From Demequina phytophila (lineage in GTDB: Bacteria > Actinomycetota > Actinomycetes > Actinomycetales > Demequinaceae), in contig NZ_BBLW01000009.1 of the NCBI RefSeq assembly GCF_000971135.1, positions 62,001 to 126,000 of the forward strand: a stretch of 64,000 nt of DNA, in the 5' to 3' direction. Positions 1 to 64,000 of this stretch are shown piece by piece. The translations under genes and the position numbers were made by a program. Numbering within the stretch: the first letter of the stretch is position 1; each line of letters begins with the position of its first letter. The notes beneath the pieces are model-generated. The model had not been told where the DNA came from. It ran no database searches and saw nothing but the letters and a program-made list of their open reading frames with translations.

Positions 1-559
1 AGCTCGGGTAGCCCACGGCGATGCGCGTCATGAAGCGGTCGCGCTGGGCCTCGGGCAGCGGGTAGGTGCCCTCCATGTCGATGGGGTTCTGCGTCGCGAC
101 CACGAGGAACGGCGCGGGCAGGGGGCGGGTCTCGCCGTCGACCGTGACGGCGCGCTCCTGCATCGACTCGAGGAGTGCCGCCTGCGTCTTCGGCGACGCA
201 CGGTTGATCTCGTCCGCGACCACGATGTTCGCGAACACCGGACCCGGACGGAACTCGAAGCGGTGCTCGTCGCCGCGGAACACGCTGACGCCCGTGACGT
301 CGGACGGGAGCAGGTCGGGGGTGAACTGGATGCGACCGACGGTGGTGTCGAGCGCGCGTCCCAGCGCGCGGGCCAGGGTGGTCTTGCCCACCCCTGGCAC
401 GTCCTCCAGCAGCAGGTGGCCCTCCGCGAGGATCGTCGCCAGCGTCGCATCCACCGCCTCGTCGAGCCCCGACAGCACCGTCTGGAGCTGTGTGCGCACC
501 CGCAATGCGAGGTCGGCCACCTCGGCGAGCTGAGCGGCGGTCGGGACGGTCGTCGTCAT
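1..559 (-). CDS. MoxR-family AAA+ ATPase (3' end off window)
   Basis: About 186 N-terminal residues are visible; the gene continues past the window start. Residues 56-60 are a Walker A (GVGKT), DEINRA at about 116-121 is Walker B, ATQNP at 155-159 looks like sensor 1, and EAQRDRF follows near 170. This order is typical of MoxR ATPases, which act as chaperone-like assembly factors for partner proteins. In actinobacteria they are often followed by DUF58 and transglutaminase genes, which would lie outside this window. The ATG at 559 is preceded by a strong GGGGAGAGGGGAA ribosome site. It is transcribed divergently from mraZ. The family assignment is firm; the substrate is unknown. Confidence 0.93.
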
Positions 560-583
560 GGGTTCCCCTCTCCCCTTGGTCCG

Positions 584-589
584 AGCCTA
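584..589 (-). promoter_or_regulatory. -10 box for moxR
   Basis: On the minus strand the hexamer is TAGGCT, matching the TANNNT pattern seen upstream of many genes here. It lies 24 bases before the ATG, leaving room for the purine-rich ribosome site. No convincing -35 was found. Confidence 0.45.
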
Positions 590-634
590 GTTGAGGCGTG
601 TACGCCCGGGCGAGAGAGATTTCCCTCCACCGCT

Positions 635-763
635 TTGACGCTCGGACTACCTGGTGTTTTGGTGAAATGTAGCGAAGTATCTGCCGATTTTCCGAGACAT
701 GTGGAGGGAAGTGGAGTAAAGTGGGGGCATCGGGAGGGACAGGGAGCCTGAGGGGAGGGGCCG
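635..763 (+). promoter_or_regulatory. mraZ promoter/leader region
   Basis: This is the divergent spacer upstream of the dcw cluster. TTGACG at 635-640 is the best -35 candidate, with weak -10 candidates at 658-684 (TTTGGT, TATCTG). The three MraZ-type boxes lie downstream of these, followed by an AGGGGAGGGG ribosome site just before the mraZ ATG. Which -10 is used cannot be decided by eye. Confidence 0.4.
701..726 (+). promoter_or_regulatory. MraZ operator: three 10-bp direct repeats
   Basis: GTGGAG, GTGGAG and GTGGGG start at 701, 711 and 721, exactly one helical turn apart. MraZ proteins are known to bind short G-rich direct repeats with 10-bp periodicity upstream of their own gene. Position and spacing make this a probable autoregulatory site for the adjacent mraZ. 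Seen: the repeats. Inferred: MraZ binding. Confidence 0.75.
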
Positions 764-1231
764 ATGTCTGAGAGCACGACGTTCGGCCTCGGGCCCACGG
801 GTGTGTTCCTGGGCACCTTCACGCCGCGCCTCGACGACAAGGGGCGGCTGATCCTCCCGGCGAAGTTCCGTGGTCGGCTCGCGTCGGGGCTGGTCGCAAC
901 CCGCGGTCTCGACCGCTGCGTGTTCCTCTTCCCGCTGGACGAGTTCGCGCTCATCCACGACCGGCTGCGCCGCGCGCCGCTCGAGAACAAGGCGGCGCGG
1001 GACTACCTGCGCAGCTTCCTCGGGCACGCGAGCGACGACATCCCCGACAAGCAGGGCCGGATCCTGCTGTCGCAGCCGCTGCGCCGCTATGCGGGGCTCG
1101 AGCGCGACGTCGCCGTGGTGGGCATGGGCTCGCGAGTCGAGATCTGGGACGCGGAGCGATGGGAGCAGTACCTGGAGGCCGGCGAGGACGCGTATGCGGA
1201 GACGGCGGCAGAGATCTTCGACGACATGTAG
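764..1231 (+). CDS. mraZ: Transcriptional regulator MraZ
   Basis: This 155-residue protein carries the duplicated MraZ/AbrB-like fold. The first half has DDKGR at 24-28 and the second DKQGR at 95-99, the two signature turns. MraZ is a DNA-binding repressor of the division and cell-wall cluster and is almost always its first gene, as here. It is slightly longer than the usual ~143 residues because of a short N-terminal extension. An AGGGGAGGGG ribosome site supports the ATG. Three candidate binding repeats lie just upstream. Confidence 0.97.
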   Translation: MSESTTFGLGPTGVFLGTFTPRLDDKGRLILPAKFRGRLASGLVATRGLDRCVFLFPLDEFALIHDRLRRAPLENKAARDYLRSFLGHASDDIPDKQGRILLSQPLRRYAGLERDVAVVGMGSRVEIWDAERWEQYLEAGEDAYAETAAEIFDDM

Positions 1232-63028: not shown

Positions 63029-63174
63029 GCACGTCCGCGGTGGTGCTGCTGGCGGTGTCGATCGCGCTCGTGTGGGGCGGGCTCGCGGTGTCGATCATCG
63101 TGCTGGCGCGCCGTCCCGAGAATGACCACATGCCGCCTGGCGGCGAGGACACCGTGGTGCCCGACGAGGTGTGA
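63025..63174 (+). CDS. metS: MetS-type small subunit of NSS transporter
   Basis: The 49-residue protein has one membrane helix (about 5-28) and a short polar, acidic tail. It overlaps metP by 4 bases (ATGA). Small subunits of this type follow NSS importers in actinobacteria and are required for transport in the Corynebacterium MetPS system. It is easily missed because of its size. Confidence 0.88.
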   Translation: MSTSAVVLLAVSIALVWGGLAVSIIVLARRPENDHMPPGGEDTVVPDEV

Positions 63175-63195
63175 CACCTCTTGCCCGTGCCGCAT

Positions 63196-63211
63196 GGGGA
63201 ACTTACCGACG
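63196..63211 (+). repeat. Third, diverged copy of the 16-base repeat
   Basis: GGGGAACTTACCGACG differs from the 57264/57305 copies by two C/T transitions and, like copy 1, is preceded by CAT. It lies in the 93-base gap between metS and the CBS-domain gene. Confidence 0.65.
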
Positions 63212-63267
63212 GTTGCGGTCGATCTCTGAGCGCTGCGGGGAAGCCACCGTCGCCGCGCACCGGCGGC

Positions 63268-64000
63268 TCACCCCGCGACGGCCTGGGCGGCGTCCACCAC
63301 CTCGCCGACCAGCCGCTCGATGACGTCCTCGAGCATCGCCGCGCCCAGCACCTCGCCGTCCGCGCCGCGCACGAGCGCGAGGTGCGTGCCGCGCGACTGC
63401 ATCGCCGTCAGCGCCTCCTCGAGGGACGCGTCGGGGGAGATGTCGGTGAGCGGGCGCACCGCGTCGGCCGGGACGGGCTTGGTGGCGCCGCCGCGCGGCA
63501 CCTGCGCGAAGTCCTTGAGGTGGAGGTAGCCGGCCCACTCGCCGGAGGCATCCACCATGGGGAAGCGCGAGTAGCCGGTGCGCACGCACTCCTTCTGCGC
63601 GCGCTGCGGCGTCACGTCCACCGGAAGCGTCACCAGGTCGGAGGCGGGCACCATCACGTCGCGCACCGTCTCGAAGCTGAGCGTGAGCGAGCCCGTGAGC
63701 ACCCGGTGCTCGTGCTCGTCGAGCAGGCCCTCGGAGCGGGACTCCGCGAGGAAGCCCTCGACCTCCTCGGCGCGGAACGTCGAGGCGACCTCGTCCTGCG
63801 GCTCGACCTTGAGGAGGCGCAGCACCAGGTTCGCGCTCATGTTGAGCAGCCAGATGAGCGGCTTGAGGACCCACACGATGCCGTACAGCACCGGGCCGAG
63901 CGCGATGGCGGACCTCTCCGGCCCCGCGATCGCGATGTTCTTGGGCACCATCTCGCCCAGCACCATGTGCAGGTACACCACGATCACCAGCGCGATCGCG
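63268..64000 (-). CDS. CNNM/CorC-type membrane protein with CBS domains (5' end off window)
   Basis: About 243 C-terminal residues are visible, and the frame stays open to the window edge. The end of the CNNM membrane domain is seen (LGEMVPKNIAIAGPERSA, then a helix and NMSANLVLRLL). It continues with FRAEEVEGFLAESRSEGLLDEHEHR and a pair of CBS domains (TGYSRFPMVD ... GYLHLKDF; RGTHLALVRGADGEVLGAAMLEDVIE). The C-terminal CorC/HlyC domain is absent: the protein ends just after the CBS pair. The family is linked to magnesium/cobalt transport. Confidence 0.92.
   Translation of the reverse strand, partial: AIALVIVVYLHMVLGEMVPKNIAIAGPERSAIALGPVLYGIVWVLKPLIWLLNMSANLVLRLLKVEPQDEVASTFRAEEVEGFLAESRSEGLLDEHEHRVLTGSLTLSFETVRDVMVPASDLVTLPVDVTPQRAQKECVRTGYSRFPMVDASGEWAGYLHLKDFAQVPRGGATKPVPADAVRPLTDISPDASLEEALTAMQSRGTHLALVRGADGEVLGAAMLEDVIERLVGEVVDAAQAVAG

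Follow-up and report, generated by a model that had tools for sequence, protein, structure and literature searches.

A repeated decamer with features of a DNA uptake sequence, and its dialects, in the Demequinaceae

Why should a single ten-base word recur 23 times in 64,000 nucleotides of Demequina phytophila DNA? The stretch concerned (the window, meaning the whole 64,000 nucleotides analysed) is part of contig 4 of a genome of 2,984,965 bp in 12 contigs (G000), the genus being placed by NCBI in the Demequinaceae, Actinomycetota, and the word is the decamer GGGACGATGC. A preliminary description had listed 23 exact copies, 17 of them extending to GGGACGATGCG, had put the chance expectation below one copy and had likened the word to an uptake sequence. 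Recounting returned every coordinate and strand as listed and the same 17 extensions, while 100 dinucleotide shuffles of the window contained on average 0.44 decamers (maximum 3), an order-4 Markov model predicted 0.65, and GGGACGATGC proved to be the most over-represented 10-mer of the window. Extended to the whole genome and to its relatives, the analysis points to the motif probably being a DNA uptake sequence (DUS) of the Demequinaceae, that is, a self-recognition tag for natural transformation.

The excess is genome-wide. The decamer occurs 903 times in G000 (440 forward, 463 reverse) against 10 occurrences of the reversed pattern used as control, and 155 times in 464 kb where an order-4 Markov model predicts 4.8, so that the comparison with Markov expectation suggested in the preliminary description leaves the word far above it. 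Related genomes are similarly rich, with 945 decamers in D. silvatica, 452 in D. gelatinilytica and 549 in D. sediminis (reversed controls 3 to 6); G020 and D. gelatinilytica had equal motif counts (211 and 241) and the same ComEC match. Within the 464 kb, each single change at positions 2–10 reaches at most about 2.5 times its own expectation, and position 1 is tolerant (TGGACGATGC, 51 vs 4.2 expected). At its full extent of about 20 bp the motif is bipartite, GGGACGATGCG-nn-GG-YCG, and the decamer is its core. G stands at +10 in 75% of copies and at +13 and +14 in about 80% each, and Y, C, G, S, S and frequently T/C come next; no sequence conservation was seen past about 22 bp in the same 464 kb. 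The flank is much alike whether copies are coding (n = 85) or intergenic and unpaired (n = 56), with G at +13 in 78% vs 84% and at +14 in 76% vs 82%, only the G at +10 being weaker in coding copies (62% vs 84%), and it is thus due neither to terminator pairs nor to codons. A weight matrix found 386 sites in 664 kb of the 2.98 Mb genome (one per 1.7 kb), with the consensus GGACGATGCGccGGtCg. The core is not palindromic, unlike words of the highly iterated palindrome 1 (HIP1) type, HIP1 itself being a palindromic octamer.

Placement was assessed in 504 kb of the genome, using genes called by a home-made codon-model caller and, as an alternative, the most upstream start of each gene. With codon-model starts (472 genes, 90.7% coding), 85 of the 166 copies are genic, 76 intergenic and five at gene edges, whereas the most upstream starts give 117, 45 and four, respectively. 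Intergenic copies are accordingly about ninefold denser than genic ones in the first case (p = 1.6e-35) and sixfold in the second (p = 5e-19); the placement described in the preliminary description is thus borne out in part, the enrichment persisting and the exact intergenic share moving with the gene starts chosen. Tandem, divergent and convergent gaps carry 1.70, 1.94 and 2.09 copies per kb (75 copies, codon-model starts), with no density difference among them (p = 0.78), a pattern more in keeping with accumulation wherever it is tolerated than with a role as promoter or terminator. Codon usage had been named as a possible sole cause, and 30 synonymous-codon shuffles abolished the genic excess, leaving a mean of 6.1 and a maximum of 11 copies where 85 are observed, so that codon usage is not the explanation.

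Counts in 25 Demequina genomes and 14 genomes of other families, together with a search for enriched words in stretches of seven and then nine further genus genomes, resolved three dialects. Decamer A, GGGACGATGC, occurs 452–903 times in nine of the 25 genus genomes and 14–81 times in the other 16, with 7–30 copies in the genomes of other families. Dialect B, GGCCGATGC, reaches 282–2018 copies in 11 of the 25 (G015 2018, G024 1687, G010 1261, G014 1253, G016 1107, G019 891, G008 788, G021 584, G007 472, G018 409 and G013 282; controls 44–110), and dialect C, GCCCGACGC, was found in G009 (1206 copies, control 100), G012 (1101, control 146) and G005 (274, control 67). All three share the core CGAYGC; what sets them apart is the two to three bases that precede it and the choice of T or C inside it. 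In G024 and G010 (dialect B) and in G012 (dialect C) the downstream GG has the register seen in A; in G015, G008 and G009 it is chiefly the second G that persists. B genomes contain slightly more of decamer A than of its control, which the close similarity of the two words would lead one to expect. B words likewise exceed their control in A-dialect genomes (G022, 664 vs 111; G011, 487 vs 122) and are perhaps relics there, the inverse relation of A and B counts being non-significant among these genomes (rho = -0.48, p = 0.19, n = 9). An expectation-maximisation motif search with an order-4 background and a fixed site rate, which replaced a version that had collapsed onto codon periodicity, failed for G001 (A+T artefact) and G002 (small sample) and was weak for G003, G016, G014 and G018. 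Other repeated words were also seen in these genomes: a HIP1-reminiscent palindrome, CGCGATCGCG, in G012 (30 vs 6.9 expected in 80 kb; L071-L072, L227-L228); another, ATCGCGAT, in G001 (30 vs 7.5 in 100 kb; L079-L081, L229-L230); and a longer repeat around CAAATGGCTTGATT in G003, present some 6–7 times in 133 kb (L064-L066, L225-L226, L289, L304).

Within the order, the motif is restricted to the family. The generic pattern GSMCGAYGCNNNGG, counted in 297 genomes of the order against its reversed control (ratios taken by eye), is enriched more than fourfold in all 24 Demequinaceae genomes, comprising 23 of the genus, in which enrichment runs from 4.1-fold (G001, G047) to about 17-fold (G010), and a single member of another genus (114 vs 17). 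Among 272 genomes of other families with a nonzero control the highest ratio is about 3.2 (123 vs 39), values from 1 to 2 being the rule; a 273rd (3 vs 0) was set aside. Three outgroup samples of 60 to 100 kb contained no such word at z 5, compared with z 34 in G000. In a tree of LeuS (a single gene, 29 rows), dialect A falls within one 11-row clade (support 99/96) that also contains the C genome G012 as well as G001, which is unassigned and adjoins G004; C recurs in the distant pair G009 and G005, and B occupies the remaining branches together with G003 (unassigned). This distribution suggests that the dialects were largely inherited by descent and have switched or converged at least once.

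Gain and loss of sites at orthologous loci, a further check suggested at the outset, were followed in pilus clusters and comEC regions (9 + 3 sequences, compared as ordered, non-independent pairs, several intergenic alignments being poor). The 62 site pairs that could be aligned comprise 18 identical ones, 31 with one to seven ungapped substitutions and 13 with gaps, so that turnover proceeds mostly by substitution. In the clear cases the surrounding sequence matches and the site is altered at one or two bases (two between D. silvatica and G000, for instance), which points to point mutation and not insertion.

The genes for DNA uptake that the preliminary description had proposed to look for, namely comEA, comEC and those of type IV pili, are all present. 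In G000 comEA and comEC adjoin, with neighbours read as leuS, degV and holA, and ComEA carries SLBB and helix-hairpin-helix domains (Pfam). ComEC was found in 37 of 39 genomes, including 24 of 25 of the genus, and not in G005 (85% complete) or the outgroup G033; ComEC of G000 has its best named relatives in D. silvatica (80%), D. gelatinilytica (61%) and D. sediminis (63% in the best segment). DprA occurs in 24 of 24 genomes (16 from the genus) and N-methyl pilins in 41 of 41 genomes of the genus. By Pfam, the pilus cluster of G000 encodes PilB, PilT, PilC, PilD and PilM, along with one pilin above the N-methyl cut-off, two just below it and a larger protein without a match.

How does this compare with known systems? 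In the literature, cited here by PubMed Central (PMC) number, bacteria are said to recognise DNA of any source in general, Neisseria being an exception (PMC12236230), and the groups for which uptake sequences have been described are two families with natural competence, the Pasteurellaceae and the Neisseriaceae (PMC7811141). The latter family has eight DUS dialects with a common CTG core, which track the core-genome tree and act as barriers to interspecies transformation (PMC3630211), and its DUS receptor is the minor pilin ComP (PMC3630211, PMC3868556, PMC4906244). The Demequina motif resembles the Neisseriaceae DUS in its core of about 10 bp, its copy number of hundreds to thousands, spread over both strands, its enrichment in permissive DNA, the dialects of related species around an invariant short core, and the presence of type IV pilus and competence genes. 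It differs in belonging to another phylum, in an unrelated motif sequence, in the additional downstream GG box, in the rarity of inverted pairs, which are common in Neisseriaceae, and in that no dialect-tracking pilin was found among the Demequina pilins tested. Demequina is, moreover, a monoderm host. A core with a conserved downstream flank is also a feature of the uptake signal sequence (USS) of Pasteurellaceae, in which the flank of H. influenzae consists of A+T-rich tracts, unlike the GG/YCG flank of this high-G+C actinobacterial host. Further likenesses to the USS are a genome-wide accumulation that fits molecular drive and a receptor that was long elusive (PMC7811141, PMC12616744); modelling in H. 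influenzae indicates that biased uptake alone can accumulate sites in this way (PMC7811141), and the Demequina genome data fit that model. Within the same phylum, the transformable Micrococcus luteus likewise has comEA, comEC and dprA; it uses Tad/Flp pili, whereas Demequina has a PilB/T/C/D type IV cluster (no search was aimed at Tad genes). The M. luteus paper does not use the term 'uptake sequence' in its main text (PMC4322843). No uptake sequence in Actinobacteria, Actinomycetota or Demequina was found among the titles and abstract beginnings listed from the open PMC literature, which is no proof of absence.

The uptake-sequence reading, already favoured in the preliminary description, gains support from the count, the failure of codon usage to explain it, the local strand balance, the turnover by substitution and the competence genes, to which the dialects of related species add. 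Under this reading, these species would be naturally competent, and a putative surface receptor of the competence machinery would favour the bipartite site, composed of the core GGACGATGC and, roughly one turn of the helix further downstream, a GG, over other DNA in binding. Retraction of the pilus, with ComEA and ComEC, would then import preferentially conspecific DNA, and DprA and RecA would recombine it. A point mutation that improves a site could spread by molecular drive because alleles bearing the motif would be taken up more often than those without it. Sites would accumulate on both strands wherever they do little harm, and a shift in the receptor's preference might slowly rewrite the genome into a new dialect. 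Judged from sequence, all features of the genome look like those of DUS/USS systems, with the exceptions of terminator pairs and of the receptor.

Several observations weigh against an uptake sequence. Inverted pairs closer than 60 bp number eight among 159 neighbours and are thus rare, unlike in Neisseria, so that the terminator habit of that genus is weak in the Demequina genome. The downstream GG is absent from the G014 sample, which is small (21 exact cores). G001 (71 A copies, control 2) and G003 fit no dialect, with the generic pattern still enriched in both (371 vs 91 and 401 vs 49, respectively), and dialect C recurs in the distant pair G009 and G005 (86/92), hence on two unrelated branches. 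The comEC gene is split into three frames in D. sediminis (L084:8001-10305) and two in G009 (L222:9221-11019), genomes in which the motif is abundant; either sequence error or recent loss would account for this. No report of natural transformation in Demequina was found in the open PMC literature, one paper, available in part, holding both terms (PMC8339730).

The hunt for a receptor belongs with these contrary points. PilD of G000 is 72% identical to that of G017, 61% to G016 (dialect B) and 43% to G020, whereas LeuS gives 93%, 81% and 93%; this discordance indicates that the pilus cluster exists in at least three allelic classes exchanged between species. The classes, assigned by eye in a survey that listed none of the open frames of G008 and G010 and part of those of G018 and G024, are spread across dialects, A occurring with all three. 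Since the cluster is swapped among species without a change of dialect, the receptor may lie outside the main type IV pilus cluster. Columns separating dialects A and B are no more numerous in ComEA, PilB, PilT, PilC, PilD or PilM than in LeuS; ComEC has 15 in 541, against 6 in 354 for LeuS, which was not counted as a signal. An orphan pilin with a C-terminal cysteine pair (L063:7993-8406, minus strand), with divergent relatives in many Demequina and a gene directly upstream that reads as MetE-like, was considered as an analogue of ComP and rejected, being acidic and not tracking dialect. In the motif-bearing G007, G011, G019, G020 and G021 the N-methyl model finds no such pilin outside the pilus cluster, and another search for it gives weak matches. 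Further pilin-like proteins showed no sorting by dialect among those read. Specificity probably resides in a different surface protein, or in some small portion of those tested. Two side observations concern the same genes: the PilC–PilD interval differs among allelic classes in length and pilin content (L062:8597-18691; L271-L289, L230, L232, L235, L239), and membrane proteins with a pilin-like C-terminal domain occur at L292-L294 and L297-L309, their N-terminal parts presumably resembling DUF4190 or DUF2510.

Among other explanations, the most serious is that the motif is the site of an abundant cytoplasmic protein which organises or regulates the chromosome (a nucleoid-associated protein, a loader of the structural maintenance of chromosomes (SMC) complex or a nucleoid occlusion factor), the sites being kept by selection. 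A sequence-specific protein would likewise give a non-palindromic, bipartite, chromosome-wide motif, and intergenic enrichment is typical of protein binding sites. We nevertheless consider it unlikely, given that related species keep only 18 of the 62 aligned site pairs, that density is alike in convergent, tandem and divergent gaps, that half or more of the copies are genic with either choice of gene starts, and that the consensus shifts between relatives with hundreds of sites following.

A sequence-specific step after uptake, such as nuclease protection, restriction-modification or a recombination preference, might instead drive accumulation in place of a surface receptor. The failure of any tested surface protein to track dialect would suit it, and any integration bias should give the same drive; yet the precedents familiar to us act at binding or uptake, we know of no such post-uptake system, and this route seems improbable.

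Less credible still is an oriented replication or repair signal, such as FtsK-orienting polar sequences (KOPS) or Chi, for which the motif would be of suitable length and abundance. The strands are balanced at 440:463 in the genome, where contig orientation is not established, and at 11:12 in the window; neighbouring copies lie more often on opposite strands than on the same one (96 vs 63, p = 0.011), and a comparison over 26 bins shows strand to be uncorrelated with GC skew (rho = -0.11, p = 0.58). An apparent plus-only run in D. sediminis was rejected, a minus copy lying within that stretch. The window balance had been advanced in the preliminary description as an argument against a polar signal of the KOPS type, and on this local evidence the argument holds, mixed strands being found elsewhere in the genome as well.

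A short mobile repeat, or one resembling repetitive extragenic palindromic (REP) elements, spreading by insertion would account for hundreds of identical cores and some inverted pairs, but conservation ends by about 22 bp and ungapped orthologous positions differ by substitutions, which makes it highly implausible. Finally, an origin of the word as a side effect of codon usage and high G+C can be virtually dismissed: two reading frames do dominate the genic copies (40 and 31 of 85), but synonymous shuffling removes nearly all of these, 45 to 76 of the 166 copies lie outside genes, and G001 and G014, with about 70% G+C in the sampled stretches, have just 71 and 38 copies.

Within the window, codon-model starts place 11 copies in genes, one at a gene edge and 11 between genes, and with the most upstream starts five of the 12 non-genic copies (edge and intergenic) remain outside genes. 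Pfam, applied to 10 of the 11 hosting genes, identified two Mur ligases, MraY, LspA, a DUF3418 helicase (which we take to be HrpA-like), a DEAD helicase, two GGDEF proteins and the beta chain of phenylalanyl-tRNA synthetase (PheRS), one gene having no match. Genic copies followed by the downstream GG lie in the two Mur ligase genes (5108–5117, minus; 6725–6734, plus), in mraY (7677–7686, minus), in the last quarter of lspA, encoding signal peptidase II (19644–19653, plus), in the DUF3418 helicase gene (23133–23142, minus), at the start of the DEAD helicase gene, the RecQ of the preliminary description (37522–37531, plus), and at the 3' end of the first GGDEF gene (51414–51423, plus). The other genic copies lie in the gene without a Pfam match (46447–46456, plus), the second GGDEF gene (53031–53040, plus), the PheRS beta chain gene (55372–55381, plus) and close to the 3' end of the gene at 60063–61277 on the minus strand (60106–60115, minus). 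Intergenic copies are found at 14708–14717 (minus), 35345–35354 (plus) and 53517–53526 (minus), and, with GG downstream, at 27217–27226 (minus) and 61351–61360 (minus). Codon-model starts also leave between genes the copies at 41846–41855 and 47122–47131 (both minus, GG downstream), that at 59321–59330 (minus) and an inverted pair at 37611–37620 (plus, left half) and 37639–37648 (minus, right half), and put the copy at 42661–42670 (plus) on a 5' gene edge. The copy at 26339–26348 (plus, GG downstream) is intergenic by the same starts and falls in a helicase N-terminus, where it had originally been placed, once the most upstream start is used. The inverted pair (37611–37648) has a start-to-start spacing of 28, seen three times in the 504 kb.

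Further sites matching the nonamer GGACGATGC had also been reported; they exist, but number 12 and not 11, and the one given at 43977 starts at 43967. On the plus strand they lie at 12861–12869 (preceded by T), 18373–18381 (A) and 52615–52623 (C), and on the minus strand at 7869–7877 (C), 19670–19678 (C), 25719–25727 (C), 31100–31108 (A), 43967–43975 (A), 47516–47524 (C), 52191–52199 (T), 52320–52328 (C) and 53394–53402 (A).

If the motif is indeed an uptake sequence, the Demequinaceae, as monoderm Actinomycetota, might possess an independently evolved, sequence-specific system for the uptake of self-DNA, in which a single family uses three or more dialects and the receptor neither resembles ComP nor belongs to the main pilus cluster; this fuller proposition may as easily prove wrong as right. 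Natural dialect switches in the genus (A versus B, and C nested in the A clade) could guide the search for a receptor, and a tag of the right dialect on the incoming DNA may make Demequina transformable.

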